The translations under genes and the position numbers were made by a program. A DNA stretch of 39,883 nucleotides, taken from NCBI GenBank assembly GCA_001767925.1, contig MEMM01000164.1:8031-47913 (forward strand), read 5' to 3'. Positions 7,723 to 23,909 of this stretch are shown one piece after another. The notes below the pieces were generated by a model that worked only from the letters and a program-made list of their open reading frames with translations, was not told where the DNA came from and made no database searches. Every line of letters begins with the position of its first letter. Within the stretch, counting starts at the first letter, position 1. This DNA comes from Alphaproteobacteria bacterium RIFCSPHIGHO2_12_FULL_63_12 (GTDB taxonomy: Bacteria > Pseudomonadota > Alphaproteobacteria > Caulobacterales > Parvularculaceae).

Positions 7723-10700
7723 TCACGCCCCGACCTCCCCCCAGGCGCCGGCGCCGACCAGATCCGAGAGTTGCGCGACCCTGATCGTGAGCGCGGGGCG
7801 GCCGCCCGGGAAATCGGCGGCGAGCATCGCCGGCGTATAGGTGAAGGCGGGGGCGGAGACTTCCGCCGTGCGGATGAGCGCGGCGCCGGCGTAAATCTCG
7901 ACGCGGTAGCGCTCATACGTCTCGCTCAAGGGGACGTCTTCGCCCGCCCATGAATCGCCGCCCTTTCGGGTGCGCCGCTTCCAGGTGACGTCAATCGCGC
8001 CGTCCGCCGTCTCGACCGCCATCAGATGGACGGGCGACAAGGGCCTTGCCCCCCGCGCCTCGCCGGTGAAGTTCCGTGTGCGGAAGGTCGGCGCCGTCGG
8101 GTGATCGTCGGCGGGCCCTGCGGCCCAGTCGAAAGCTAACCCGCGCAGGTCGAAGGGGAGCGACGCCTGAACGATGGCGCCGGTCAAAAGGACGAAACGC
8201 GCGTTTGCGGGCGCGCCGGCGGCGGCCTCCTGTTCCGAGCCGCTCTGGCCGCGCAAAAGCCCTGTGAGCGTCCACGCGCCGTCGGGCCCGAGTGAGGCGT
8301 CGCGAAATTGCAGGATTTCCCAGCCCGCCGGGGTTTCGACGGCGGCGGCGTTGGCGCCGGCGAGAACTTCCTCCGCGCTTTTGGAGACCAGCGCGCCGAA
8401 GGACAGGCGCACCCGCATGGACCGCTCGTCCCAGCGCCCGGAGGCGCCGGGGCTGAGCGGCGCGTCGAGCCGCCCGATGACGGCGCGCGCGGTCGCGGTC
8501 GCGGCGAGCGCGTCGCCGCGATAAAGCGCGATCGCGCCCGGCCACGGCTCGGCATGGACGGCGAAATAAGGCGCCGCCGGATCGTCATCGTCGCGCAGGA
8601 GCGGCAAGTTCATCAGCTCGAACGCCGGCGGCCCGAATTGCGGCGCAATCGCCGGCGCCTTGAAGCCGCCGGTCGCCGGCGCGTCCTCATATACCGCGCG
8701 GGCGACGCGCACCGCCTCAACCTTTCGTGTCGCGCCGTCGGTCATCGACACGATGCGATAATCGCGCGCCGTCGCTCCAAGATCGAGCCGCACCGCGTCG
8801 CCGGGCTCAAGCGCGGCGAAGGAGGGCGGCAGCGCGAAGCTCGCCGTCTCGCGCATGACGCCGGCGTCGGCGAGGATCGAGCGCGCGCGCGCCGCGGCGG
8901 CCGCCTCGTCCATCACGGCGGGAAGCTCCATGCCGATTTCGCGAATGTCGTCGGCGAAAGGAAGCCGCGCCTCGGCAAGCGCGGGGAGATAATCGCCGCC
9001 CTCGTCGATATAGCCAAGGCGCACCGCCGTCGGCAGGTCTGCTTTGTGGCCGATCGTCACCGCATAGGCGCCGCGCGCTTCGCGCCCCGCCGCGTCGTCG
9101 GCGAGCATGGACGCATCAAGCGAGGCGACGCTCGCTCCTCCTCGGGGCTGAAAGCGCAGGCCCGTCGCCGTCTCCGTCATGTCGAACTGAAAAACATCCG
9201 CCAGCGGATCGATCATCTGGCGCGGCGACAACGGCCGGTCGACGACATAGCCGGCGATCGAGCCTTTGAGACCGGAAGCGTCAACGCCCTGAATATCGGC
9301 CTGCGCGCACAAGGCCGCGACCAGCGCATCGAGCGGCGCGCGCGTCAACCGCCCGTTCAGCCAGTGACCCTTTTCCCAGTTCGCCGCGTCGCCCCAGATG
9401 TCGGCGCGCGCCGGAAAATACGGGAAGGGGCGCGCGTCGAAAGCGTAGACGTAAAGCCGGTCGGTCTCGATCATCGAAACGCCGCCGGCGCTTTCATTGT
9501 GCGCGCGCCAATACTCATGCACGGCTTCGAGCGTCCGGCGCTGCGCCAGCTCGTCGCGCGCGCCGCTCGAAAAGGGCGGCAGCGCGGATTCGGAGGATTT
9601 GGGATCGACAAAGACATTGGGCGCGTTCGCCCCCTTGTCGACGGCGGGACAGCCGAATTCGGTGAAGCGCACCGGCTTCGATTTCGGAACCCAGGGCGTC
9701 GGCGCGGCGTCGCGGATGAAATTCGGACGATGGTGATGCGTGTTCTTCCACCAGTTGCGGATGTCTTTCGCGCGCCACACCCACGCCTCGTTATAGGCGG
9801 CGTCGTTGATCGGCGTCCGCGCTTGCGCGTCGCGATCGGCGGGGCTTGCGTAATACCAGCTGAAATTTTCGCCGCCCTCGATATTGGCGGCGATATAGGC
9901 GCGCTCGTGCTGGCCATTCCATCCGGCGTTGAGATCGGCGTGATCGACGCCGTCGCGCCAGTCGGCGAGCGGCGGGTAATAATCGATGCCGATGAAGGCG
10001 ACATTGGGATCGGCCCAGAATTCGTCGAGATGGAAATATTTCCCGTCCGCTTTCGTCACGCCCGACCATTCCGACCAATCGGCGCCATAGGAGATTTTCG
10101 CCGCCGGCAGGATCGCCTTCACCTCCGCCGCGAGGCTTATGAGCGCCGCGACCGCCGGGAAGTTCCCCTGATGGTCGCGCGCCGTCGTCAGGGCGCGCAA
10201 TTCCGAGCCGATCAGGAACGCCTCGACGCCGCCCGCCGCGGCGCACAGATGCGCATAATGGAGGATCATGCGGCGGAACGACCATTCAGCGGGACCGGCA
10301 TAGGCGACAGCGCCATTGGCGAGCGAAAAATCGCCCGGCGCGGCGCTTCCGAAAAACGCCAGAATATCGGCGGCGGCGCCCGCGCTTCCCTCATGCGCGC
10401 CGACGCCGATGCGCCCGCGCCAGGGGTAAGCCGGCTGCGCGCCCGCGCCCTCGGGACTGGGCAGATTGTTCGTCGGCGGAATATCCATCAAAATGAAGGG
10501 GTGAAACATCACCGCGAGGCCCTTCGCCTTCAGCGCCTGTATCGCCTCGATGACGCCCGTGTCGTCGGAGGTGCCGCCATAAGCGGGGCGCCCATCGAGC
10601 TGCGAGACGAGGCGCGCTTGCCCGCGCGCGACGCCGCCGCCGCGCCAGTCGGCGGGCGTTGTCGTCTTGTCATAGGTTTCAACGCCGGGCGTCAGCCGGC

Positions 10701-11577
10701 AAACGCCGGCCCTTAGATCGTCGCCGAACCAGGCGACAACGAGCGAGGCGGCTTTCAGGTTTTTCGCAGCGCCCGTCAGCGCGGTGAGCGAGGCGGAAAA
10801 ATCGGTGACGCCGTCATTATTGTTGACGTTCTCCGACGCGGTGACCCCCTCGCCCGCCTCGCGCGTCACTTTGGTCGTTCCGTAAATGAACTCGCCCGAC
10901 CCCGGAATAAGGGTGACGGCGGCCAGCGCGTTTTCGAGCGCGACGGGATCGTCTTCGCCGAGGGCCTTTTCGATCTCGAAGGAGAGCTGCGGGATGCGGT
11001 TACCGAAATCCTTCAGCGGCAGATCCTCGAACACGATGTAAGCGAGCCCGCGAAAGGCCGGGGCGCCGCCTTCGACCGCGTCGATCAGCGCGTCGGGCGT
11101 TTGCGTCGGCGTGCCGCGATAAACGCGGTGATTGACTTTCGACAGATCGAAGGGTTTTCCATCCGCCCACACGCGCGCGACGCGGTCGATCTCGCCTTCG
11201 CAGAGGCCCACCGCGAAGGAGAGCGAATAAACATATTCGCGGAATGTCGTCTTCGACGCGGCGAGGCGCCCGCCCTTGCCGCCGGAGGATTCGGTCGTTT
11301 CCGCGACCGTCTCCTTGAAATTCGCCGCCCAGATCAATTGCCCGGCGACACGCGCGCGGCCCCAGACCCGCGTGACGCCCGCGCCTTCGGTCGATGACTG
11401 GATAGTGAAGCTGTCGAGCCGCGGGCCTTCGACGGTGCGCTTTCGCGGCCCGAAGATCAGCCGCTCGGCGGCGCCCGCGACATAGGAAGCGGCGGTCGAA
11501 GCGACCGTCCGTGCAAGGATCGTCCCGATCCCGGCGCGCCCGGCGGCGGCGGCGGCGGAAAGGATCAGTTGGGCCAT
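7723..11577 (-). CDS. GTA-type tail host-specificity protein (gp15 homologue, glycoside-hydrolase/TIM-barrel plus phage tail domains)
   Basis: 1284 aa; N-terminus MAQLILSAAAAAGRAGIGTILARTVASTAASYVAGAAERLIFGPRKRTVEGPRLDSFTIQSSTEGAGVTRVWGRARVAGQLIWA; TIM-barrel-like YGADWSEW, FIGIDYYPPLADWR, RFTEFGCPAVDKGANAPNVF; typical of gene transfer agent gp15. Confidence 0.92.
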   Translation of the reverse strand: MAQLILSAAAAAGRAGIGTILARTVASTAASYVAGAAERLIFGPRKRTVEGPRLDSFTIQSSTEGAGVTRVWGRARVAGQLIWAANFKETVAETTESSGGKGGRLAASKTTFREYVYSLSFAVGLCEGEIDRVARVWADGKPFDLSKVNHRVYRGTPTQTPDALIDAVEGGAPAFRGLAYIVFEDLPLKDFGNRIPQLSFEIEKALGEDDPVALENALAAVTLIPGSGEFIYGTTKVTREAGEGVTASENVNNNDGVTDFSASLTALTGAAKNLKAASLVVAWFGDDLRAGVCRLTPGVETYDKTTTPADWRGGGVARGQARLVSQLDGRPAYGGTSDDTGVIEAIQALKAKGLAVMFHPFILMDIPPTNNLPSPEGAGAQPAYPWRGRIGVGAHEGSAGAAADILAFFGSAAPGDFSLANGAVAYAGPAEWSFRRMILHYAHLCAAAGGVEAFLIGSELRALTTARDHQGNFPAVAALISLAAEVKAILPAAKISYGADWSEWSGVTKADGKYFHLDEFWADPNVAFIGIDYYPPLADWRDGVDHADLNAGWNGQHERAYIAANIEGGENFSWYYASPADRDAQARTPINDAAYNEAWVWRAKDIRNWWKNTHHHRPNFIRDAAPTPWVPKSKPVRFTEFGCPAVDKGANAPNVFVDPKSSESALPPFSSGARDELAQRRTLEAVHEYWRAHNESAGGVSMIETDRLYVYAFDARPFPYFPARADIWGDAANWEKGHWLNGRLTRAPLDALVAALCAQADIQGVDASGLKGSIAGYVVDRPLSPRQMIDPLADVFQFDMTETATGLRFQPRGGASVASLDASMLADDAAGREARGAYAVTIGHKADLPTAVRLGYIDEGGDYLPALAEARLPFADDIREIGMELPAVMDEAAAAARARSILADAGVMRETASFALPPSFAALEPGDAVRLDLGATARDYRIVSMTDGATRKVEAVRVARAVYEDAPATGGFKAPAIAPQFGPPAFELMNLPLLRDDDDPAAPYFAVHAEPWPGAIALYRGDALAATATARAVIGRLDAPLSPGASGRWDERSMRVRLSFGALVSKSAEEVLAGANAAAVETPAGWEILQFRDASLGPDGAWTLTGLLRGQSGSEQEAAAGAPANARFVLLTGAIVQASLPFDLRGLAFDWAAGPADDHPTAPTFRTRNFTGEARGARPLSPVHLMAVETADGAIDVTWKRRTRKGGDSWAGEDVPLSETYERYRVEIYAGAALIRTAEVSAPAFTYTPAMLAADFPGGRPALTIRVAQLSDLVGAGAWGEVGA

Positions 11578-11749: not shown

Positions 11750-12274
11750 TCATTGTTCAACTCCAGGAAATTCGAAAACGCCGGCGAGGCGCGTCATCCA
11801 CCAGCGGCAGAGCCAGCTTTCGATGACGGCGCGCCCGGCATAGGCGTGGATGAAGCGGTCGCCCGCCGAGACGATCCCGCAATGTTTGGCGGGTCCCGTC
11901 GGAACGATGCGGAAGATCAGGATCTGTCCGGGGCGCAGCGGCGTCGCCTCCGTCAGATGCCGGCGCGCGGCGGAGAGCAGCGGCTCGTCGCAGGGGCGGC
12001 GCTCGTTCCAGTCGGGCGTGTAGGGCGGCGGCGTTTCGGGCGCGGCGCCCAGTAATTCCGTATAGAGACCGATGACGAGGCCGAGACAGTCCGTCCCCGC
12101 CCCCTTCGCCGACGCCTGATGCACATAAGGCGTCCCGAGCCAGCCCCTTGCCGCGGCGACGATTTGGTCGCGGGAAAGCGCGGATTTTGTTTCGAGACGC
12201 GGGCGATCCTTCGAGACGCCTCGCTGCGCGAGGCTCCTCAGGATGAGGAAGCTTCTGAAAAAGGCGCCCTTCAC
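11750..12274 (-). CDS. NlpC/P60-family peptidase, GTA gp14 homologue; N-terminus encoded by a repeat element
   Basis: ALSRDQIVAAARGWLGTPYVHQASAKGAGTDCLGLVIGLY (catalytic Cys in GTDCLGL), HCGIVSAGDRFIHAY. Only in-frame start seen is GTG at 12274, upstream of the repeat. Confidence 0.82.
   Translation of the reverse strand: MKGAFFRSFLILRSLAQRGVSKDRPRLETKSALSRDQIVAAARGWLGTPYVHQASAKGAGTDCLGLVIGLYTELLGAAPETPPPYTPDWNERRPCDEPLLSAARRHLTEATPLRPGQILIFRIVPTGPAKHCGIVSAGDRFIHAYAGRAVIESWLCRWWMTRLAGVFEFPGVEQ
12206..12248. repeat. REP-like element, family 1 (TCCTTCGAGACG...CCTCAGGATGAGG), within the 5' end of the gp14 ORF
   Basis: ATCCTTCGAGACGCCTCGCTGCGCGAGGCTCCTCAGGATGAGG; same consensus recurs in at least five other places in the window. 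Confidence 0.85.
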
Positions 12275-12452: not shown

Positions 12453-12482
12453 TCAAAATGCGATGACGCGGCGGAGGATCAT
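12453..12482 (-). pseudogene. Orphan 5' fragment of an array paralog (MILRRVIAF*)
   Basis: ATGATCCTCCGCCGCGTCATCGCATTTTGA matches the first 8 codons of intact paralogs, then stops; preceded by the same GGCCGCCCC leader as paralogs A and J. Confidence 0.75.
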
Positions 12483-12678: not shown

Positions 12679-13461
12679 TCATCGGCTCTTCCCTCCCGCA
12701 TCCTTGCCAAGCGCTGCGTCGACCGCCGCGCGCATGACGGTTGCGTTGCCGAGGCGGTCATTGCCGACTTGCGCGGCGACCTGCATCGTCGACATCCAGT
12801 ATCTGAGCTCCGCCATCAGCGCGGCGTCGGTGCGGATCTGATCGACGATTCGCGCCGCTTGCGCCTCGTCGAGCGGCGACGCGCAGTCGAGCATCATCTG
12901 GCGCGCCTTGATGTCGGACGTATAGCAGTTTTTCCAGATATAGTTCTGCACGCCGAGCGGAATGACGCCGCGCACATGCTGGCGATAGGGCGGGCGTTCG
13001 GCCATCGCCGGATTGATCCCCAGAGAATAATACTGCGCGAGGTCATTGCGCAGGCCGGTGTCGGCGATCAGCCCGATCTCGCCGGCGCTGGTCAGCTCGT
13101 CATAGGTCGTCTGCGTCGTATAGAATTCCGCGACCTGGCTCGACTGGAAAAAGGCGAGCAGCAAATCCCATTGCGAGGCGCCCCTCGCCTCGCCGGTTTC
13201 GGCGTAGTCGAGGCCCTTCGCGCCATAGTCGGCGACCTTCGCCCAGAACGCCAGACGGTCGGTATAGGTCGCGATGTCGGCGTCGAGATCGGCGCCGATG
13301 CGCTGGAGATAGTCATGCGCCCGCACCCGGCCCTCGCGCGCCTCATTCCAGTTCGAGACCTGCAAGCCGACGAAGACGCCGACAACGACGATGATGAAGT
13401 CGAGAAAGATCGCGGTCCATTCCTGCTTGCGGAAATGCGCGATGACACGGCGGAGGATCAT
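12679..13461 (-). CDS. Array paralog A: N-terminal membrane-anchored protein, function unknown (DUF6090-like architecture)
   Basis: MILRRVIAHFRKQEWTAIFLDFIIVVVGVFVGLQVSNWNEAR; core TTYDELTSAGEIGLIADTGLRNDLAQYY; Cys pair NCYTSDIKARQMMLDC. Confidence 0.9.
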   Translation of the reverse strand: MILRRVIAHFRKQEWTAIFLDFIIVVVGVFVGLQVSNWNEAREGRVRAHDYLQRIGADLDADIATYTDRLAFWAKVADYGAKGLDYAETGEARGASQWDLLLAFFQSSQVAEFYTTQTTYDELTSAGEIGLIADTGLRNDLAQYYSLGINPAMAERPPYRQHVRGVIPLGVQNYIWKNCYTSDIKARQMMLDCASPLDEAQAARIVDQIRTDAALMAELRYWMSTMQVAAQVGNDRLGNATVMRAAVDAALGKDAGGKSR

Positions 13462-13592
13462 GGGGCGGCCCTTCGTAGGGCGGGCCTTGGCCCGCCGTCT
13501 TCGTTTTCCGACAATGTCCGTGCACGTTGCAACTTCGCCGGCGGGTTAAAACCCGCCCTACAGGATTGGGCGATGACGCGGCGCAAGATCAT
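13458..13592 (-). pseudogene. 44-codon relic ORF between B and A (MILRRVIAQSCRAGFNPPAKLQRARTLSENEDGGPRPALRRAAP*)
   Basis: Starts in ATGA overlap with the stop of B (13589-13592); its stop overlaps the start of A (13458-13461). First 8 residues match the paralog head; the rest is mostly repeat. Confidence 0.7.
13475..13561. repeat. REP-like inverted pair, family 3 (GTAGGGCGGGCCTTGGCCCGCC ... GGCGGGTTAAAACCCGCCCTAC)
   Basis: Two palindromes facing each other, lying between paralogs A and B. Confidence 0.85.
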
Positions 13593-14359
13593 GGGGCGTC
13601 CTCCAGATATTGCTTGAGCCGCGCCTGCAGCGCCGCGGCGCGCGCGGCGGCGGCGGCGACTTCGCCGCGATGAAAGATCACGAACGTCGCCATGATGCGG
13701 ATCGTCGCGGCGAGCTGGGGATTGTCGGCGACGAGGCGGAAATAATCTTGCGCCGGCGTATATGCGAAGGGCGCAAGGCCGTAGAGAGCGCCCGTATTTA
13801 AGGCGTCCCTTCGCAGCGTCAGAATTTTTTCGTTCTGGTCGCCGACGCTCGAGACGAGATTGTAGTATCCCTGAATTTCCTTCGCGAGTTCGGCGTCGCG
13901 GATCAAAGTGACGTCGCCGGCGCCGGCGATCGCGTCATAGGTCATGGTGCTCGGCGTTGGATGAAACCCCAGAACGATATCCGTCCAGAGCCGGTCACGC
14001 CCCGCGTCGGGCGGCGTCGCCAGTCGCGACAGATCGAACGTGTAATCGACCGTGCCGGCGCCCTGGTCGCCGGCCTCGAAGTCGAGGGGCGGCAGGCCGG
14101 CGCCTTCGAGCGACGCCATCGCGGCGACGACCCGCTTCTCGGCGGTGTCGAGGCTCTGCGCGTATTGCGCGCGATCAATGTCGAGATCGCCGATCAGCCC
14201 TTCGACGATCTGCGTCTCGCGCTGGCGGTCGTTGAGGTTCCGGCTCCATTCCTGCGCCTGCAAGCCGACGAAAACGCCGGCGACGACGATGACGAAATCG
14301 AGAAAGATCGCCGTCCATTCCTGCTTGCGGAAATGTGCGATGACGCGGCGGAGGATCAT
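13589..14359 (-). CDS. Array paralog B
   Basis: MILRRVIAHFRKQEWTAIFLDFVIVVAGVFVGLQAQEWSRN; core MTYDAIAGAGDVTLIRDAELAKEIQGYY. Confidence 0.9.
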   Translation of the reverse strand: MILRRVIAHFRKQEWTAIFLDFVIVVAGVFVGLQAQEWSRNLNDRQRETQIVEGLIGDLDIDRAQYAQSLDTAEKRVVAAMASLEGAGLPPLDFEAGDQGAGTVDYTFDLSRLATPPDAGRDRLWTDIVLGFHPTPSTMTYDAIAGAGDVTLIRDAELAKEIQGYYNLVSSVGDQNEKILTLRRDALNTGALYGLAPFAYTPAQDYFRLVADNPQLAATIRIMATFVIFHRGEVAAAAARAAALQARLKQYLEDAP

Positions 14360-14550
14360 GGCTTCACCTCTTCCCGTCCTTCGAGACGCGGGCCTTCGGC
14401 CCGCTCCTCAGGATGAGGAAGAAAACTCCCCTCAACCTGAGGAGCCTCGCGCAGCGAGGCGTCTCGAAGGATGCTTTGAGGCGCCGGCGTCGCGAAGGGC
14501 GGCGGGCTGAAGCCCGCCCCACGGGACGGCGTCACGCAAGAGAGACTCAT
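14356..14550 (-). other. 64-codon repeat-derived mini-ORF between C and B, ATGA-overlapped at both ends
   Basis: MSLSCVTPSRGAGFSPPPFATPAPQSILRDASLREAPQVEGSFLPHPEERAEGPRLEGREEVKP*; start overlaps stop of C (14547-14550), stop overlaps start of B (14356-14359). Confidence 0.65.
14377..14472. repeat. REP-like inverted pair, family 1
   Basis: TCCTTCGAGACGCGGGCCTTCGGCCCGCTCCTCAGGATGAGG ... CCTGAGGAGCCTCGCGCAGCGAGGCGTCTCGAAGGA. Confidence 0.9.
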
Positions 14551-15296
14551 CGCCCATTCCCCTTGTCGATCGCGGCGGCGACGCGGTCGGCCTCGGCGCG
14601 CAGCTCTTTCATGATTTTCAGATGGCGGTTCGTATAGAGCCAGTAATTCCGCGCCGCGGCGAGCAGCACGGCGTCGCCGGCGAAGGCGTTGACGATTTCG
14701 CCCGCCGGCATCGCATCGACCGGCGACAGGCCCGCCTGCTGCTGCGCGTCGACAAGTTTGACGCGGTTGACTTCGAGCGAGGTTTCAAATGTCAGCGCCT
14801 TGTCGACGTCGGCGTAATAGGACTGGATCGCGCGCAGCAGCGCCGCGTCGCGAATGACGCCAATGCCGCCGGTGTTGACCATCGTGTCATAGGAAAGCCG
14901 GTTGCCGTCGAATGTCGTCAGGATGAACATCGCGACGCCGATCGTCTCCGGGCTTTGCGCGTCGTAAGGGGGCGCTTGTTCGATCTCGATCCGGCCGCGC
15001 GCCGAGTTGAACCCGTCCGGCAGGGGCGCGCCGCCCGCTTCGCGCAGGAGAAAGCTCATCGCCGACATCCGGTGCGCTGAAACGCGGATGATCTCCTCGA
15101 TCTCCGCGATGTCGCTGCGAATGTCGGCCGCGACGCCGGCGAGATAGACGGCTTCCCTCGTCCGTTCGCCGCGCGCCGCGTTCCAGTTCGAGACCTGCAA
15201 GCCGACAAAGACGCCGACGACGACGATGACGAAGTCGAGAAAGATCGCGGTCCATTCCTGTTTGCGGAAGTGTGCGATGACGCGGCGCAGGATCAT
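14547..15296 (-). CDS. Array paralog C (start moved to internal Met at 15296)
   Basis: MILRRVIAHFRKQEWTAIFLDFVIVVVGVFVGLQVSNWNAAR; core LSYDTMVNTGGIGVIRDAALLRAIQSYY; 4-nt ATGA overlap with D. Confidence 0.9.
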   Translation of the reverse strand: MILRRVIAHFRKQEWTAIFLDFVIVVVGVFVGLQVSNWNAARGERTREAVYLAGVAADIRSDIAEIEEIIRVSAHRMSAMSFLLREAGGAPLPDGFNSARGRIEIEQAPPYDAQSPETIGVAMFILTTFDGNRLSYDTMVNTGGIGVIRDAALLRAIQSYYADVDKALTFETSLEVNRVKLVDAQQQAGLSPVDAMPAGEIVNAFAGDAVLLAAARNYWLYTNRHLKIMKELRAEADRVAAAIDKGNGR

Positions 15297-16063
15297 TTCG
15301 CCAGCTCGCTGTCGATCGCCGCGGCGAGCGCGGTCGCCGCCGCCGTGTCCGGCTCGACGCTTTGCGCCAGCTGGTCGAGATTGGTGATCCAGAAGCGCAG
15401 GCCGTCGACCAGCAGCGGGTGCGCCAGATAGACCTCGAGAATTTTCGCCGCCTCCGCCTCGCTGACCGGCGCCGGACAATCAAGCATGCGCTGATTGACC
15501 GGGCCGTGCGAATGACATTCGTTGACGATGTAGCTGGCGACGGCGATCGGCGTCGCGCCGCGCACCGCCTGGCGATAGGCGGGGATAGCGGTGTAAACGA
15601 CGGCGCGAACGATTTTCGCGCTGTTGCTGTAATAGTTCGAGAGCGCGATGCGCAGCTTCTCCGAGCGGATCAGCGTGACGTCGCCCGCGCCGCTCATTTC
15701 ACTGAACGCCGTGTCGTTCGGGGAGTAGAACCAGACATTGGAGGCCCAGAAGAACGACCGCACGGTTTTCCACGCCGACCCGTCGACGAGCGCGCCGGTC
15801 TCGGCGTAGCCGGTAGCCATGCGGCCGGCCGCGGCGACATCCGCCCAATAGCGCTGACGTTCGGCGAGGCCGTCGATGTCGCCCTGAAGATCGGCCCGGA
15901 TGCGCGTCAGATACGAAATCTCGCGCGCCCGGTCCTGCCGCGCCGTGTTCCACTCGGTGATCTGGAAGGCGATCAGAATGCCAGCGACGACGATGACGAA
16001 GTCGAGAAAGATGGCGGTCCATTCCTGTTTGCGGAAATGACCGATGACGCGGGAGAGGATCAT
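15293..16063 (-). CDS. Array paralog D
   Basis: MILSRVIGHFRKQEWTAIFLDFVIVVAGILIAFQITEWNTAR; core TAFSEMSGAGDVTLIRSEKLRIALSNYY; Cys pair ECHSHGPVNQRMLDC. Confidence 0.9.
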   Translation of the reverse strand: MILSRVIGHFRKQEWTAIFLDFVIVVAGILIAFQITEWNTARQDRAREISYLTRIRADLQGDIDGLAERQRYWADVAAAGRMATGYAETGALVDGSAWKTVRSFFWASNVWFYSPNDTAFSEMSGAGDVTLIRSEKLRIALSNYYSNSAKIVRAVVYTAIPAYRQAVRGATPIAVASYIVNECHSHGPVNQRMLDCPAPVSEAEAAKILEVYLAHPLLVDGLRFWITNLDQLAQSVEPDTAAATALAAAIDSELAK

Positions 16064-16257
16064 GGCTTCACCTCTTCGCATCCTTCGAGACGCGGGCCTT
16101 TGGCCCGCTCCTCAGGATGAGGTTGAAAACTTCCCTCACCCTGCCGCCGCCGCGCCGAAACGGCGCTCTGGCGCGCCGTGCAGGCGGGAGGAGCCGGCGA
16201 AGCCGGCGTCTCGAAGGGCGGCGGGGTGAAATGCTCGATAACGCAAGAAAAGCTCAT
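16060..16257 (-). other. 65-codon repeat-derived mini-ORF between E and D, ATGA-overlapped at both ends
   Basis: MSFSCVIEHFTPPPFETPASPAPPACTARQSAVSARRRQGEGSFQPHPEERAKGPRLEGCEEVKP*; head resembles MILRRVIEHF; overlaps at 16254-16257 and 16060-16063. Confidence 0.65.
16081..16217. repeat. REP-like inverted pair, family 1
   Basis: TCCTTCGAGACGCGGGCCTTTGGCCCGCTCCTCAGGATGAGG ... GGAGCCGGCGAAGCCGGCGTCTCGAAGG. Confidence 0.88.
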
Positions 16258-17039
16258 GAGCCAGACTCTCTCAGCTTCTTGAGGGCTTCGCGAATGTCGC
16301 CGTTCACAAGGGAGAGCATGTCGCCACGCCGCGAATCGAGATTGGCGATGCGCAGGCGCAGCAGCGGGACCGTCAGGGGGTTGGCCCTTAGCGCCGCCGC
16401 CGCGTCGCGCAGGGCCGCCGGGGGCAACCCGGTCTTGCACGGATAATCGAGCTGATCGACGATCGATGCGTAGTCGCCGATGACGACGTCGCGATCGCCG
16501 CAGGACCGGCTGAGCGCGCGTTGGATCGCGGTCGGCACGGCCATCCGGAACAGCTCGCGATAGCGCGAGTCGACGCCTTCCCGGCGAATATTATCGAAAA
16601 TCGGCGTCGTGTAGACCCTGATCGCCAGGCTGCGGAACGCGCGGTCGCGAATGAGCCCGATCCCGCCGGTGGAGATCAGTTCGTCATAGGTCGAGCGCCG
16701 CCGGCGCGGCTCGCGATACTGGGTCGCGCGATAGGCGGCGACGAGGAGCGCCTCGTCATCGAGCGCGGCGCGCCCTTCGAGCGCGTCCATCGCCGTCTCG
16801 GCGCTCTTGAGAACGTCGTCGTTGTATTCGAAAATATACTGGAAGCCCCACGCCTCGAAGAGAAGATCGTCCTTGAGCCGCGCGCTGAAGACCTCGCCCC
16901 GCGCGCGCGTCTCCCGCTCTTCGTTCCAGTTCGAGACCTGCGTGCCGAGAAAGACGCCGAGGACGACGATCGCGAGATCGACCCCGACCGCGAACCAGTT
17001 ATGCGTCTTCACGTGATCATAGATGCGGCGGGGGATCAT
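16254..17039 (-). CDS. Array paralog E (subtype shared with I)
   Basis: MIPRRIYDHVKTHNWFAVGVDLAIVVLGVFLGTQVSNWNEER; core STYDELISTGGIGLIRDRAFRSLAIRVY; CGDRDVVIGDYASIVDQLDYPC. Confidence 0.9.
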   Translation of the reverse strand: MIPRRIYDHVKTHNWFAVGVDLAIVVLGVFLGTQVSNWNEERETRARGEVFSARLKDDLLFEAWGFQYIFEYNDDVLKSAETAMDALEGRAALDDEALLVAAYRATQYREPRRRRSTYDELISTGGIGLIRDRAFRSLAIRVYTTPIFDNIRREGVDSRYRELFRMAVPTAIQRALSRSCGDRDVVIGDYASIVDQLDYPCKTGLPPAALRDAAAALRANPLTVPLLRLRIANLDSRRGDMLSLVNGDIREALKKLRESGS

Positions 17040-17845
17040 CGCGCGCTCCCGTCAAGGCGCGCGGCGATCTTTGCGTTCATCGCCGCCGTCGCCTCTCGCA
17101 TTCTTTGCGCGAAGGATTCATTCGTCCCCGCGACCATCGCGCGCCATGAAAGCAGCGCGTTGATGTCGGCCCAGACGCCGGCGTCCGGCGGCGCTTCGAG
17201 GGCGACGCCCGGCGCCTTGTACAGGGGACCGGCGTAAACTTCGGCGATGAACCCTTTGTCGTCGAGCCCCGTATTGAAGCGCGGCGCGCCCATCAACTCC
17301 TCGTTCCACGGGCGGGAGGGAACGCCCAGCGCAAACATGCGGGCGACAAACCCCGCATCGACGTAATACATGTTGTTCCGGTCGATCGCCGCTTCCATGC
17401 GGCGCATGTTGAAGAAATAGGAAACGACCTCGGCGCGCAGCGCATCGTCGAAGATGACGTCCATCTTGCCGGAATTTTGCAAGTCGACGAAGGTCGGGCT
17501 TTCGATCCGCAAGGTGCGGCGCATGGTGAGTTGCGAGAGGCCGATATTGATGCGCCGGACGCGATCGGGCGAGGCTTCCTGCGCGATGTAGTCGTAGGTC
17601 TTGCCCGCAAGCTTCGCCTGATATTGCTCGAACGCGATCTGGGCGCGCGCCTCGACGTCAATCAGCCGCAAATCATTTTGCAGTTGCGACAGATAGGTCG
17701 CCTCCGCCCGCTTGTCCTTCGCCGCCTCGTTCCAGTTCGAGACCTGAATGCCGACGAAAACGCCCATGACGACAATGACGAAGTCGATAAGGATCGCCGT
17801 CCATTCCTGACGGCGGAAGTGTTGAATCACGCGGCGCAGGATCAT
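17036..17845 (-). CDS. Array paralog F
   Basis: MILRRVIQHFRRQEWTAILIDFVIVVMGVFVGIQVSNWNEAA; core PTFVDLQNSGKMDVIFDDALRAEVVSYF; ATGA overlap with E. Confidence 0.9.
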   Translation of the reverse strand: MILRRVIQHFRRQEWTAILIDFVIVVMGVFVGIQVSNWNEAAKDKRAEATYLSQLQNDLRLIDVEARAQIAFEQYQAKLAGKTYDYIAQEASPDRVRRINIGLSQLTMRRTLRIESPTFVDLQNSGKMDVIFDDALRAEVVSYFFNMRRMEAAIDRNNMYYVDAGFVARMFALGVPSRPWNEELMGAPRFNTGLDDKGFIAEVYAGPLYKAPGVALEAPPDAGVWADINALLSWRAMVAGTNESFAQRMREATAAMNAKIAARLDGSAR

Positions 17846-18606
17846 GGCTGTCTCGCGAGGTGATCGTTGATGAGCGCGACGGTTTTTTCCGCCTCGTCCG
17901 CCTGCTGGGCGAGCGTCGTGCGGACTACCGAGACGGTCGAAAGCCAGTAAGTGAGCGAGCCTTCAAGTTCGGGCTTGGCGCGCAGCGCCGCGACGACGGC
18001 GCGCGATTCTTCGGCGTTCAGCGCCGGCGGGCAATCCTCGATGAAAACTTGCCGGCGGCCTTCGACGCGAAAACAGTTCCGCCAGAAATGCTCCTGCGCC
18101 GCAGCGGGAATGATCGACCTCACTTCGCGGCGATAGGCCGGAAGCTCGGTGACGATCGAGGCGAGCTGATCCTGAAGCCCGTAATAACGCATGATGACGG
18201 ATTTGAGCGCGGCGTCGCGCGGCCGCCCTGTTCTTTGAACCTCGACAAACGCCGTGGTGTCGCCTTTGACGCTCGCCCATTGCGAGGCGAGGAAGAAGTC
18301 GCGGATCACACCCCAGCAATCGTCGGCGCAAGGTTCGGCCGCCTTCAGCGCGGCGAGCGCCCGCGCGCCGAACTTCGTATCGTCGTCAAGAAACGCGATA
18401 TAGCCGCGGATATCTTCGGCGTCGCCCGAAATCGAATTGCGCACGATCTCGATGAACTCGCGCTCGCTCGACCGTTCAAGGCGCGCCGCGTTCCAGTTGG
18501 TGACCTGCATGCCGACGAATACGCCGACGACGACGATCACGAAGTCGATGAAGATCGCCGTCCATTCCTGCTTCCTGAAATGGGCGATGACGCGGCGGAG
18601 GATCAT
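17842..18606 (-). CDS. Array paralog G
   Basis: MILRRVIAHFRKQEWTAIFIDFVIVVVGVFVGMQVTNWNAAR; Cys pair NCFRVEGRRQVFIEDC; ATGA overlap with F. Confidence 0.9.
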   Translation of the reverse strand: MILRRVIAHFRKQEWTAIFIDFVIVVVGVFVGMQVTNWNAARLERSSEREFIEIVRNSISGDAEDIRGYIAFLDDDTKFGARALAALKAAEPCADDCWGVIRDFFLASQWASVKGDTTAFVEVQRTGRPRDAALKSVIMRYYGLQDQLASIVTELPAYRREVRSIIPAAAQEHFWRNCFRVEGRRQVFIEDCPPALNAEESRAVVAALRAKPELEGSLTYWLSTVSVVRTTLAQQADEAEKTVALINDHLARQP

Positions 18607-19364
18607 GGCTGTTTCTCCACCGACTGCGCGTGGTCGGCGCCGGTCTCGTCGTCGATCGCCTTGTGCAGCATAGCGAGCTTGGCGCTGACAGGCAGCACCG
18701 CGCGATTGGCGTAGACGTTATACATATAGGCGTTTTCGCTGAGCTCGTTTCTGAAGGCGGGATCGGCGCGCATCGCATCGGCCCGGCAATCCGGGTTCAC
18801 CCAGACCTGATCGCCGACGGAGCGCGAGGGGCCGAGATGATGCGTGATAAGATGGGGATACGCCTTGCCGAGGTCGCGCCCTGAATCGGTGATCACCATG
18901 ATGAGGTCATGGGCGCGCGACGCCTCCTGCATGTAGGTCAAGATGGCGACGCGGACGGTCGGCGCGGTGAGCTGGTCGAGCCGGCCGGTCGACAAAAGCT
19001 CGGTCACCGTCGGCAGATCGGCCGGCGGCACGGTCGTGTGCGCCGACCCGGCGATGGCGTCGCATTGATCGGGCGACAGCGTGATATCCGCCGCCTCCCC
19101 GTCCAGCAGGCCGACGGCGGCGATCAGGTCGGCCGAAAACTTGCCGCGCGTCCGGTCGTATCGCTCCCGCGTCGCGATGAGCTGTTCGACCTCGCCGTGA
19201 AGGCGCGCGAGATAGGCGCGCTCGCTCTTCTGGCGATCGCGCTCGACCGCGAGCGCCTGCACCTGCATGCCGATGAAGACGCCCATGACGACGATCAGGA
19301 AGTCGATCGCGATGGCGGTCCATTCCTGTTTGCGGAAATGGTCGATGACGCGGCGGAGGATCAT
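18603..19364 (-). CDS. Array paralog H (most divergent)
   Basis: MILRRVIDHFRKQEWTAIAIDFLIVVMGVFIGMQVQALAVER; core-like PTVTELLSTGRLDQLTAPTVRVAILTY; ATGA overlap with G. Confidence 0.88.
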   Translation of the reverse strand: MILRRVIDHFRKQEWTAIAIDFLIVVMGVFIGMQVQALAVERDRQKSERAYLARLHGEVEQLIATRERYDRTRGKFSADLIAAVGLLDGEAADITLSPDQCDAIAGSAHTTVPPADLPTVTELLSTGRLDQLTAPTVRVAILTYMQEASRAHDLIMVITDSGRDLGKAYPHLITHHLGPSRSVGDQVWVNPDCRADAMRADPAFRNELSENAYMYNVYANRAVLPVSAKLAMLHKAIDDETGADHAQSVEKQP

Positions 19365-20146
19365 GGCTTGTTCTCGCCGGCGATCGCACGGAGATTTTCG
19401 AGAAGGCCGGACGTGCCCTGTTCCAGATTGAATATCGCGGTTTCAAGATCCGCGAAGCGGAGTTGCAGCGCCGGGAGAAGCAGCGGGTCGGCGCGCAGCG
19501 CCGCCGCGGCGGCGACGATCTTTCCGGCCGGGAGATCGAGGGCGCAGGGGTAATTGATGGAGCCGACAATGCCGGCGTAATCGCCTTCCGCGGCGATGCG
19601 ATCGCCGCAATCCGCCAGAAGCGCGCGCTGAACATCGACGGACACAATGCGCCGGAACATCTTGCGATATTCCGAATTCCTGGCTTCCTCGCTGTTGGTA
19701 GCGACGGTCGGGTCCGCGTAATAGGCAAGCGCCGTCTCGCGCAGGCGCCGATCTGCGATGATGCCGATGTCGCCGGTCGCCACCATCTCATCGAATGTCG
19801 CGCGCCTTGATCCGTTGTAGATATACTGGCTGGCGCGATAGGCGCTGATCACCAGCTGCTCGTCGGAGAGAGCCGGCCCGTCGGTCATCGCCGCGGCGGC
19901 GCGCAGGGCGTTCGTCCGCACCTCCTTGTAATAAGCGATCTGATACTCATACGCCCACGCTTCATGGCGAAGATCGGCGGCGAGCCGCGCGCCATAGATG
20001 CCGGCGCGCACCTGCGCCTGCCGCGCCGCGTTCCAGTTCGATACCTGCAGGCCGACAAAGACGCCGACGACGACGATGACGAAATCGAGGACGACGGCGG
20101 TCCAGTTCTGGGCTTTCACATGCTCGATGACGCGGGAGAGGATCAT
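19361..20146 (-). CDS. Array paralog I (subtype shared with E)
   Basis: MILSRVIEHVKAQNWTAVVLDFVIVVVGVFVGLQVSNWNAAR; core ATFDEMVATGDIGIIADRRLRETALAYY; CGDRIAAEGDYAGIVGSINYPC; ATGA overlap with H. Confidence 0.9.
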   Translation of the reverse strand: MILSRVIEHVKAQNWTAVVLDFVIVVVGVFVGLQVSNWNAARQAQVRAGIYGARLAADLRHEAWAYEYQIAYYKEVRTNALRAAAAMTDGPALSDEQLVISAYRASQYIYNGSRRATFDEMVATGDIGIIADRRLRETALAYYADPTVATNSEEARNSEYRKMFRRIVSVDVQRALLADCGDRIAAEGDYAGIVGSINYPCALDLPAGKIVAAAAALRADPLLLPALQLRFADLETAIFNLEQGTSGLLENLRAIAGENKP

Positions 20147-20976
20147 GATTTCTCCTTTGCATCCTTCGAGACGCGGGCCTGCGGCCCGTTCCTCGGGATG
20201 AGGTCGCGCTCTTCCTCATCTAGCGCCGCCGCGATCGCGTTGCGAAGGTCCTGCGCAAACTCAATGCGGTCCCTGGCGATAACGGCTGCGACGCGCATCG
20301 TCGATAACCAGTAACGCAATTCCGACATCAAGGCGGCGTCGCCCGCCAGCGCGTCGACGATTTCCATCGCCCGTTCTTCGCTGACCGGCGCATCGCAATC
20401 GATCATCGACTGACCGTTATAAGGGTCGGACTTGAAGCACCTCTCCCAGATATAGTCCTGGATATCGACCGGCATGGCTCCGCGCACATGCACGCGATAG
20501 TCGGGCGACTCCGACAGCGCCTGGAAATAGGAATTGCTGTAGTAGACCGACAACCGCTTGCGCAGCGCCACATCGCTGATCAGTCCGAGTTCGCCGGCGC
20601 TGGTCATTTCGTCATAGGTCGCCTGAGTGACGGCGAAAAGGTCGGCCTGGCTCGCCTGGAAAAATGCGACGAGCAATTGCCAATAGGTTTTTCCGCCCAT
20701 GTCGCCCTTGTCGGCGAAGTTGATGGCGCGGTAGCCGTAACCGGAAACTGCTTTCCAGAAAGCCAATCCTCTTCGCCGGTAGGTGGCGATGTCCGCGGCG
20801 AGGTCGTCGTCCATTCGCTCCAGATAGGAAATCGCGCGCGCATGTTCGGCTCGGCGGTCATTCCAGTTGGTGATCTGAAAAGCGATCAGGATGCCGGCGA
20901 CGACGATGACGAAGTCGAGCGCAATCGCGGTCCATTCCTGGCGACGGAAATGCTCGATGACGCGGCGCAGGATCAT
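20143..20976 (-). CDS. Array paralog J (first gene of the array)
   Basis: MILRRVIEHFRRQEWTAIALDFVIVVAGILIAFQITNWNDRR; core ATYDEMTSAGELGLISDVALRKRLSVYY; Cys pair RCFKSDPYNGQSMIDC; ATGA overlap with I. Confidence 0.9.
   Translation of the reverse strand: MILRRVIEHFRRQEWTAIALDFVIVVAGILIAFQITNWNDRRAEHARAISYLERMDDDLAADIATYRRRGLAFWKAVSGYGYRAINFADKGDMGGKTYWQLLVAFFQASQADLFAVTQATYDEMTSAGELGLISDVALRKRLSVYYSNSYFQALSESPDYRVHVRGAMPVDIQDYIWERCFKSDPYNGQSMIDCDAPVSEERAMEIVDALAGDAALMSELRYWLSTMRVAAVIARDRIEFAQDLRNAIAAALDEEERDLIPRNGPQARVSKDAKEKS
20161..20203. repeat. REP-like element, family 1, inside the 3' coding end of paralog J
   Basis: ATCCTTCGAGACGCGGGCCTGCGGCCCGTTCCTCGGGATGAGG; translated in J as DLIPRNGPQARVSKD. 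Confidence 0.85.
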
Positions 20977-20985
20977 GGGGCGGCC

Positions 20986-23025
20986 TCAATCCTCTTTGAC
21001 GCGCCGGATGACGTCGATCTTCTCAAGCGTTGCGAGATAGTCGGCGACTTCCGGCAAGGAGACCGGCCCGTAGGCCGCGTCGAGGATGTTACGGATCGCG
21101 GCGACGTCGCGCGTCCCGTCGACGAGGTTCAGGGCTTCGTAAACGAGCAGTTCGTTGTCCGGCGGCTGGGTGTTGTTCGTGGCGCCGTCGCCGCTGAGCT
21201 TATCGGCAAGATAGGAATAGCCGAAGGCGTTCATCGGGCCTTTCACTTGCGGATTGCGCGCGTAAACGCGCGCCGCTTCTTCGCCGTCGAACGCCATCGC
21301 CGCGCCGCGACCGAGCGCTTGCGCCAGAGCGTCGAGCCAGGCGAGCGCGGCTTCCTCGCCGTTCCACGCGCCAAATCGGCTGATCGACGCGATCACCGCG
21401 CGCTCGCCGCGCCAGAATTCGAAGCGGAGATTGGCCGCCTCATCGGGCCGCAATTTTTCCGCCGCCGCCTCCATCGACGCGGCGCGGCGCAAAATCGCCG
21501 GGCGCGCCGCGTCCCACAGCGCGTCGCCGTCGGCGTATCCGGCGAGGGCAAGCCCGCTCGCCGCCGCGATGAACGCGACCCGCTTCAGTTTCGTCGGATC
21601 GATGTTTTCGGGGCGGTCCTTGTTGGTGTGAATGAAGCGATCCGGCCAGTCGTTGAAGTAAAGGGCCGGGATCGACCAGCTAGAGTCGAGATAGATCTGA
21701 TTATCACTGCCGAGTTCAAACGGCGCGAGGCGCGGCGCAAAGGCGCCTTTTGTTCCTTCCGTGGCGATCAGCGGAAAATCACTCTCTTCGCCGCTCGCAA
21801 AAGCCAGCGTCTCCTCGCCGACGAACAGCGCGAGCGCGCCCGCGACATCGGAAACGACGCTCGGAAGGCTCGCCGGCGTGCGGGTGACGCGAAACACCGC
21901 GCCCGTTTCATCGCCGCCGCCGACCATGTCGAGATGGATCGCCGCCTTGAAGCGTTTGGCTAGATCCGGGCGGCCGCTCAACAGCGCGAGCGTTCCCTCG
22001 ATTTCCGGCGGAAAGACGAAACGCAGCGTTCGCACCGGGCGGGCGATGAGCTTCTCGTTGATCAGGCGCGCAAGGCTGATCGCAACTTCATGGATCGTCA
22101 CGCAGCCCGAGGCGTTATCGTTCGCGCCCGGCCGTTGATGATCGAGATGGCAGGAATAAACGATTTCGCCGGCGTCGGGGTCGGTTCCCCGGATCCTTGC
22201 GGTGAGAATCTGATAGCCGCCTTTCGACCAGCCGGCGTCGACCTTCGCACTCAGCATGATCGTCTCGCCGCCGGCGAGGCGCTTTTGAAACTCCCGCGCC
22301 TTTTCGAGCGAGACCGCAAAGGCGAAGGTTCCCGGCCGCGCGAAACTGTCGAGATGCGCCCAGCGCAGGAGCGATGCGTCATCGCCTTGCCACGCGGTTT
22401 TCTGGTTGAGCGCGTATGTGATAATGCCCGCGGCGCCGTATCGGTCGACCGCGAGTTTTTGAATCTCTTCCGGCTGGCTCGATGTCAGGACAAGCTTTCC
22501 CCGGACGTCTTTTCCTTCATAGTCCGCCGCCGACACGCCGGCGCCGATATCGACGAGCGCGGCGGTGACGGCGCCGGACGCGCTGTCTTGCGCGAGCGTC
22601 ACGGGCTGCGTCTCCCAGTCGGCGAGGCGAACGGACTTCTTCCAGCCCTCGCCGTCGGGCGTCATTTCCCAAAGTTCGGCGAAGCGCGCGTTCCACGGCG
22701 CGCGCGAGCGCTGCGTGCCGTAGAATATTTTCCCGTCCGCCGGAAAATCGAGAAAGCGGACATCCTCGAGGCCGCCCGCCTTGAGGCTTTCGGCGAGATG
22801 ATCGGCGGCGGCGCGAAATTGCAGCGACCCGCGCATGCGGTGATGCCGCGTCACGCCTTCAAGTTCGCGATAGGCGCGCTCGCCGGAAATTTCCTGCGCC
22901 AGCGCGTCGGCGACGGAGCGATCGATGAGCGGGGGATCTTCAGCGGCGCGGGCGGGCGCGATGGCGCATGCCAGGGCGACAATCAGCGCGAACGCCGGAT
23001 TTCTTCCGCATGATTGACCGCTCAT
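20986..23025 (-). CDS. Secreted M28-family metallopeptidase with PA-like insertion
   Basis: Signal peptide; YSCHLDHQRPGANDNASGC zinc-site motif; HLDMVGGGDE; start placed at ATG 23025 behind GGAGGAAAAT rather than at TTG 23037. Confidence 0.88.
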   Translation of the reverse strand: MSGQSCGRNPAFALIVALACAIAPARAAEDPPLIDRSVADALAQEISGERAYRELEGVTRHHRMRGSLQFRAAADHLAESLKAGGLEDVRFLDFPADGKIFYGTQRSRAPWNARFAELWEMTPDGEGWKKSVRLADWETQPVTLAQDSASGAVTAALVDIGAGVSAADYEGKDVRGKLVLTSSQPEEIQKLAVDRYGAAGIITYALNQKTAWQGDDASLLRWAHLDSFARPGTFAFAVSLEKAREFQKRLAGGETIMLSAKVDAGWSKGGYQILTARIRGTDPDAGEIVYSCHLDHQRPGANDNASGCVTIHEVAISLARLINEKLIARPVRTLRFVFPPEIEGTLALLSGRPDLAKRFKAAIHLDMVGGGDETGAVFRVTRTPASLPSVVSDVAGALALFVGEETLAFASGEESDFPLIATEGTKGAFAPRLAPFELGSDNQIYLDSSWSIPALYFNDWPDRFIHTNKDRPENIDPTKLKRVAFIAAASGLALAGYADGDALWDAARPAILRRAASMEAAAEKLRPDEAANLRFEFWRGERAVIASISRFGAWNGEEAALAWLDALAQALGRGAAMAFDGEEAARVYARNPQVKGPMNAFGYSYLADKLSGDGATNNTQPPDNELLVYEALNLVDGTRDVAAIRNILDAAYGPVSLPEVADYLATLEKIDVIRRVKED

Positions 23026-23108
23026 ATTTTCCTCCAAACCCTATCAAGGTTGATGATCGCCCCGCGCGAGCAGATCATCGGGCGCACCGTCCCTTCAGCG
23101 TCACCGCC

Positions 23109-23909
23109 TCACGCGCATTCGAAATCGGCGTTTTCAGAATTCTGGGGGCCTTTCGGCTTGCACTGCGGCGGGAAGCCGTGCGCGCGCCAATAATCGTAAA
23201 CGCCGCTGTCGCGAATATACGCCTTGAACTGCGGCGAACGGCGATAGCGGGCGTAATCGGCGCCCCAGAGGTGAAGGGGGTACGGCGCCACGCTGAAATC
23301 GCCGAGCGGGATAAGCAGGGCGCTGACAGGATTGGCGCCGCGTCGCGGTTGGGTGCGGACATCGACCTTCGCCAGCACGTTCAATATTTCCTCCGCCATG
23401 CCGTCGGAGAAATATTCCTGGTCCTTGCCGGGCGATAAATCAGCGAACGGAAGGACGGCGATCGAGGCGTCCTTCGAGACGGCTTCGCTTCGCGAAGCCT
23501 CCTCTAGATGAGGGGTGCTGCTTTCCTCATCCTGACGGGGCCGCGAAGCGGCCGTCTCGAAGGATGAAGGCGCAACGCGATCAACGACGAACATCACCGC
23601 GATCAGACCAATGCCGGCGAGGATCGCATAGTCGAGCTTGCGTCCTGTTTTGGCGTGGATGCTCTCGCCCGCCGCCACATTGGCGGTCAGCTTCACCCCT
23701 TCCGGCGTCATCTCGAACGCCCAGGCGAGGATCATCGCAATCGGGAAACCGACGCCGAACAGAACAATCACCAGCGTGTCGGTCCACGCCGGCAGGCTCA
23801 ATGGCGCTTCGACCGCGACCACGACCTGCACCAGCAGCCACGCAACGACGGCGTAAACCCCCGCCACGCGAAACACGTTGCGGCGTTTCAGCTCCTCGAA
23901 CAGCTTCAT
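23109..23909 (-). pseudogene. Internally deleted TolB-like/TPR regulatory membrane protein (N-terminus joined to C-terminal tail)
   Basis: [62 protein letters not shown], then directly the C-terminal tail [28 protein letters not shown]...DFECA; the expected middle and TPR region is missing. Confidence 0.72.
23470..23564. repeat. REP-like inverted pair, family 1, inside the 23109 ORF
   Basis: TCCTTCGAGACGGCTTCGCTTCGCGAAGCC...GGCCGCGAAGCGGCCGTCTCGAAGGA, read in frame as [31 protein letters not shown]. Confidence 0.85.

Follow-up and report, generated by a model that had tools for sequence, protein, structure and literature searches.

A near-constant membrane anchor and divergent ectodomains in tandem arrays of DUF6090-family genes: a possible repertoire of periplasmic recognition modules

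Why would a bacterium keep ten neighbouring genes for membrane proteins that share nearly the same N-terminus and diverge strongly after it? The question is raised by positions 12679-20976 of a 39,883-nucleotide stretch of DNA (the window) from Alphaproteobacteria bacterium RIFCSPHIGHO2_12_FULL_63_12 of the Parvularculaceae (contig MEMM01000164.1), a draft genome of 84.7% completeness. Analysis of this segment revealed ten minus-strand open reading frames (ORFs) of 249-277 amino acids (aa) that form one family, related to DUF6090 (PF19578). An initial annotation had described ten consecutive minus-strand genes of about 250-280 aa with a common layout, and the ORFs and their full-length alignment agree with that description. 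Overall, our analysis tentatively favours the view that the locus is a modular repertoire whose exchangeable members are recognition or adaptor modules, tethered to the inner membrane and facing the periplasm.

The ten genes are listed below. The ORF starts of genes 3 and 4 were trimmed to the homologous ATG; types are ectodomain clusters at 40% identity, and pLDDT is the predicted local distance difference test score.

12679..13461, minus strand: array gene 1, last in transcription order; 260 aa, type 0 ectodomain, C179/C193, AlphaFold2 pLDDT 95
13589..14359, minus strand: array gene 2; 256 aa, no cysteine, no close relative of its ectodomain in the sample
14547..15296, minus strand: array gene 3; 249 aa, DUF6090 30.9 bits
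15293..16063, minus strand: array gene 4; 256 aa, DUF6090 30.8 bits, type 0
16254..17039, minus strand: array gene 5; 261 aa, type 1, with a more divergent head: MIPRRIYDHVKTHNW
17036..17845, minus strand: array gene 6; 269 aa, DUF6090 28.7 bits, type 7
17842..18606, minus strand: array gene 7; 254 aa, four cysteines, no same-type relative at 40% identity
18603..19364, minus strand: array gene 8; 253 aa, W-N box missing; nearest ectodomain (64%) in Sinimarinibacterium (Gammaproteobacteria)
19361..20146, minus strand: array gene 9; 261 aa, type 1
20143..20976, minus strand: array gene 10, first in transcription order; 277 aa, DUF6090 24.1 bits, type 0

Thirteen columns are invariant in the alignment of the ten proteins. 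Twelve of these are found within residues 1-34 and the remaining one is the ectodomain glycine G127. A single transmembrane (TM) helix is present at about residues 15-38 in each protein. Analysis of 387 family proteins revealed that residues 1-39 form a near-constant anchor, made up of an amphipathic head, one TM helix, a G28xxx(G/A)32 motif, Q34 and W38-N39; mean conservation was 0.72 in the anchor against 0.30 in the ectodomain. Glycine was found at position 28 in all proteins (100%), followed by glycine or alanine at position 32 (99%), W15 (99%), Q34 (97%) and W38 (95%). Small-xxx-small motifs of this kind are typical of helix packing. The same step was found in arrays of Bacteroidota, the phylum to which the sample around the Rhodothermales genome G492 was taken to belong (anchor 0.58-0.86, ectodomain 0.10-0.25). 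Two sequence motifs of the initial annotation hold in part. The SNWN box is exact in five of the ten proteins and NWN occurs in seven, with genes 2 (QEWS), 4 (TEWN) and 8 (QALA) deviating, and most copies show a strong TYDEL..G.IGLI.. core, with degenerate versions in genes 6, 7 and 8.

Exactly one TM segment was predicted in 382 of the 387 family proteins. The net charge is +2.1 over the first 15 residues versus about 0 over residues 40-54, and the number of ectodomain cysteines is even in 97.4% of the 387 proteins, mostly two. This charge bias and the even cysteine count support an N-in topology in which the ectodomain would be periplasmic and carry a disulfide, consistent with the earlier placement of this region outside the cytoplasm. 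The AlphaFold2 model of gene 1, built with 99 relatives (mean pLDDT 95), predicts an amphipathic helix at residues 2-11, a continuous helix at residues 15-89 that runs from the membrane into an all-helical ectodomain, a helical core and then a long closing helix at residues 213-250. Comparison of this model with the PDB using Foldseek gave no usable counterpart (best E 0.12), and a PDB sequence match to chain m4D2 (E 0.011) was dismissed as chance.

The ectodomains are homologous end to end across all ten proteins, with an identity of about 15-28% between neighbouring genes. A profile made from ectodomains only, of other types and other loci and without the head, recovered all ten nearly full-length (E = 3e-11 to 1e-40), so these divergent ectodomains are truly homologous. 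The resemblance to DUF6090 noted earlier was borne out for genes 3, 4, 6 and 10, which pass the PF19578 gathering score of 23.5 bits (24.1-30.9 bits); the other six proteins are below this cut-off and are joined to the family by full-length ectodomain homology to other types. No match for the array proteins was found in NCBIfam, and no relatives were found in the phage, viral-contig and plasmid collections searched. In PADLOC, any one defence family was hit by at most one of 100 members (best E 0.009, scattered chance matches). PHROGs gave weak holin and spanin profile matches, which are probably TM-driven and were rejected. The literature searched contained no paper naming DUF6090 or PF19578, in line with the earlier statement that no function is known for it.

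How such arrays are built was analysed using 227 genes from arrays of five or more genes. The nearest ectodomain was found in another locus for 211 of these genes, with a median identity of 51% for the best match in another locus versus 28.6% within the array. No recent duplicates were seen among these genes; this lack, together with the 211 best matches elsewhere, rules out recent tandem duplication as the origin of the arrays. Clustering of 387 genes at 40% identity resulted in 161 types, a count that depends on the threshold (120-195 types at 35-45% identity). Among 54 arrays, 19 same-type extras were observed within arrays against 22.0 +/- 3.5 after shuffling, and 12 conserved ordered neighbour pairs against 12.0 +/- 2.5 in shuffled order. 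Because type repeats and neighbour order both equal the shuffled expectation, the arrays resemble, in composition and in order, random samples of a common pool with at least 161 ectodomain types. An overlap of exactly 4 nucleotides (nt) was found at 202 of 304 junctions. Relic heads numbered 38 across the 54 arrays, a few of them contig-edge truncations, and a shuffled-head control gave 0. Members are gained and lost, and dead genes leave relic heads behind. Two other loci carry fusions of the head with an unrelated protein that resembles metalloproteases. Between Alphaproteobacteria and Gammaproteobacteria, ectodomain types retain 50-64% identity, and their reading frames are intact.

In the window array, ATGA overlaps of 4 nt occur at six of the nine junctions, and these overlaps imply translational coupling of neighbours. 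The remaining three junctions are gaps of 127, 187 and 190 nt with palindromes resembling repetitive extragenic palindromic (REP) elements, and relic heads are recognisable in two of them. The head DNA pattern had 11 matches in the window versus 0.00 in shuffles. No further family copies were found in the genome, at the draft completeness given above. The relic heads are as follows.

12453..12482, minus strand: relic head MILRRVIAF*; 4/30 mismatches to a live head, with the GGGCCGCCCC leader before it, as in gene 1
13563..13592, minus strand: relic head MILRRVIAQS; overlaps the gene 2 stop, with a REP-like palindrome after it
16228..16257, minus strand: degenerate relic head MSFSCVIEHF; overlaps the gene 5 stop, with a REP-like palindrome after it

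The REP-like palindromic repeats (TCCTTCGAGACGC...TCCTCAGGATGAGG) are present between or near array genes at 12207-12251, 14377-14421, 16081-16125 and 20162-20206; the last copy falls inside gene 10, in coding sequence close to the 3' end.

At DNA level the head again differs from the rest of the gene. For identical residues at codons 2-39, codon identity was 61-68% versus 42-45% expected from codon use (31 arrays), and codons beyond 80 were at the codon-use expectation, the ectodomain being saturated. Between-array comparisons also showed a head codon excess. It has the same size in alpha-alpha as in alpha-gamma pairs, so a position-specific preference for certain codons accounts for part of it. 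The within-array excess persisted after matching for GC content at third codon positions in 29 of 34 arrays. We read these results as head exchange within arrays on top of a nucleotide-level preference, and the split between the two is inferred. As proof of gene conversion the head codon identity is weakened, part of the excess being shared by distant genomes. In Bacteroidota the contrast between head and ectodomain is mainly at the protein level.

The initial annotation had called for tandem arrays to be counted and mapped in related genomes, where arrays do recur with variable copy number. They were found in Alphaproteobacteria, Gammaproteobacteria and Bacteroidota, with 0 to 30 or more copies per genome. 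A genome scan gave 75 loci, each with 1 to 17 recognisable genes, and many of these loci are single-copy. Hyphomonas johnsonii and Parvularcula mediterranea are among the array carriers. Among whole genomes, the family is present in 97 of 249 from the same order, in 25 of 41 from close relatives and in 5 of 242 from the class. Copy number ranges from 0 to 12 in the genus and reaches 30 in the taxonomic family. For the phylum around G492, 25 of 149 sampled genomes were positive, and their arrays run to tens of genes. The large genome searches, that of the G492 phylum included, scored the best 10 or 21 candidates per genome, and copy numbers from them are minima. Loci were collected by head motifs and a type 0 protein query; type 0 and canonical heads are over-represented as a consequence.

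A companion recurs in the operons of the arrays, a three-TM protein with a TolB-like domain and a TPR solenoid (39 genes in 18 loci). All companion genes are on the array strand, often within about 100 nt. The companion model (pLDDT 85) had the CadC periplasmic domain as best structural match (E 1.4e-7). The position just upstream of the array is occupied by the only copy in G301 and in the window genome, by four of five copies in G032 and by three of four in G395. Genomes with a TolB/TPR protein carry arrays in 11 of 12 cases versus 14 of 29 for the others (p = 0.013), and similar companions occur inside an array of G539 from the phylum sample around G492. The companion also forms tandem sets itself, as at L081:1227-18404, where six TolB/TPR genes surround three array genes. 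The window copy is missing about 390 residues including the TPR region, and an M28 peptidase gene, probably the first gene of the operon, separates it from the array.

20986..23037, minus strand: M28 family peptidase whose N-terminus resembles a signal sequence; stop 9 nt before gene 10
23109..23909, minus strand: TolB/TPR companion, internally deleted in frame; keeps residues matching 3-182 and 570-613 of a full-length homologue

Other co-oriented neighbours are secreted M28, M20 and zincin peptidases, SnoaL-type proteins and a second single-TM family without Pfam entry (EVRQN type). The last, which is interleaved in the arrays, was considered as a distant DUF6090 relative and not accepted (profile-profile probability 3%, P = 0.014). 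In some loci it extends into a SnoaL/NTF2-like domain (L062:18609-19613, L023:2423-3328), and in others a separate SnoaL-type protein is found near it. At one array end, L020:12338-13204 encodes a single-TM protein with a DUF6090-like anchor (FWSEIVIVVLGVVIALAANEAVQEW) and no Pfam match. In the window, an NlpC/P60 gene (11750-12274, minus strand) lies directly downstream of the array, followed on the same strand by a gene transfer agent tail gene (7723-11577; GTA_TIM, Phage-tail_3, Rcc01698_C).

Under the exchangeable-repertoire reading, the constant anchor with its small-xxx-small TM motif would dock every member alike, either to like members or to an inner-membrane partner common to all, for example the CadC-like TolB/TPR protein, and the variable ectodomain would bind different periplasmic targets. 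A receptor or adaptor role for extracytoplasmic ligands or clients is preferred over toxin neutralisation; the ligands or clients may be peptides or proteins, because M28/M20/zincin peptidase and SnoaL-type neighbours recur. The diversified receptor-like set suggested earlier is consistent with this evidence. It is rather improbable, as a joint claim, that an invariant TM docking module and pooled interchangeable ectodomains make up a combinatorial repertoire, shown on a common inner-membrane platform for broad extracytoplasmic recognition in Alphaproteobacteria, Gammaproteobacteria and Bacteroidota; the platform in that joint claim, with the same low probability, would be the CadC-like TolB/TPR protein or TM-mediated hetero-oligomers. 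Several points weigh against the repertoire reading. The array proteins are without an output domain, and the putative docking step is deduced from conservation. The sample is skewed to conserved heads and type 0 by the way it was collected. TolB/TPR is at most an optional partner because it is absent from 14 of 25 array-bearing relatives, and the window's own copy is without its TPR region.

The strongest rival, doubtful in our estimate, is a homogeneous polyimmunity locus, a pre-emptive stock in which each member is a membrane-anchored immunity protein against a different inner-membrane or periplasmic toxin. Published polyimmunity loci consist of tandem, distantly related paralogs in one polycistron, variable in number and type between relatives and usually without an adjacent toxin (Zhang et al. 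2012, PMC3482391). TsaI (DUF443) arrays of Staphylococcus aureus comprise 2-16 genes for membrane immunity proteins, in which a single 5' block is conserved and the C-terminus varies (Garrett et al. 2022, PMC9484751). Because both match the loci analysed here in anatomy and evolution, this rival is a strong one, and random composition and order, types shared across taxa and relic genes all fit it. However, no toxin was recognised beside the low-copy loci viewed by eye with ten neighbours by Pfam (MazG, glutamate dehydrogenase, TonB receptor, nucleases, zincin and SnoaL), a small, biased sample in which unfamiliar toxins would escape. The sheath protein of the type VI secretion system (PF05591) was found in 0 of 41 relatives (E. 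coli control positive), no PADLOC family recurs, and an immunity tether is not expected to retain W15, G28, Q34 and W38 across taxa.

A mostly recombination-driven origin, in which near-identical repeated heads ease duplication, deletion and downstream-ORF capture with little selection on single ectodomains, appears quite unlikely. It accommodates the synonymous identity of the head codons beside a saturated ectodomain, the metalloprotease-like fusions and the relic heads. It is opposed by arrays without recent duplicates, by ectodomain types that stay 50-64% identical between Alphaproteobacteria and Gammaproteobacteria in intact frames, by the mostly protein-level head effect in Bacteroidota and by the part of the codon bias that also appears between distant genomes. 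The hetero-oligomeric assembly proposed in the initial annotation, as a fixed envelope complex with ten paralogs as distinct obligatory subunits, fared worst and is very improbable. Start/stop overlaps of neighbouring genes and the possible TM packing motif suit it, but order and composition of the 54 arrays match shuffles, neither set nor order is conserved, copy number ranges from 0 to 30 among relatives, and many loci are single-copy.

The exchangeable repertoire remains the preferred reading. In the Proteobacteria and Bacteroidota sampled, DUF6090 genes stand in strings of 10-30 or more per genome. The exchangeable-repertoire behaviour and the operon-sharing CadC-like protein turn the locus into concrete questions, namely the ligands of the ectodomains and the docking partner of the anchor. 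For DUF6090, a broad receptor/adaptor set would be new, and so would a protective stock tethered to the membrane.

The Pfam entry for DUF6090 states no function. Its match in the window proteins begins in the TM segment, and they share with it an N-terminal TM anchor that precedes the S-G-x-L/I-x-L-I core. Genomes sampled from the G492 phylum have the same kind of anchor, a TYxELxSxGxLxLI core and large tandem arrays, whereas the proteobacterial head MILRRVIEHxRxQxW is unlike the Bacteroidota head. The companion resembles the CadC periplasmic domain (PDB 3ly7, 3ly8) in its periplasmic TolB-like and TPR-type fold (TM-score about 0.68-0.70), and differs in having three TM helices and no DNA-binding output domain. 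TsaI arrays likewise are strings of genes for membrane proteins that are conserved in one 5' block and vary in the C-terminal part, but TsaI has five TM helices, is tied to the type VII secretion system toxin gene tspA and belongs to Firmicutes. Polyimmunity loci (PMC3482391) are alike in their tandem, co-directional and distantly related paralogs (here 202/304 4-nt overlaps and a within-array best match of median 28.6%), in number and type varying between relatives (here 0-12 copies in the genus, and up to 30 in the taxonomic family) and in having no adjacent toxin, here as judged from the low-copy loci viewed. Unlike them, DUF6090 has no known toxin partner, is not among the Imm families examined from that source, and combines a constant TM anchor with a CadC-like companion.

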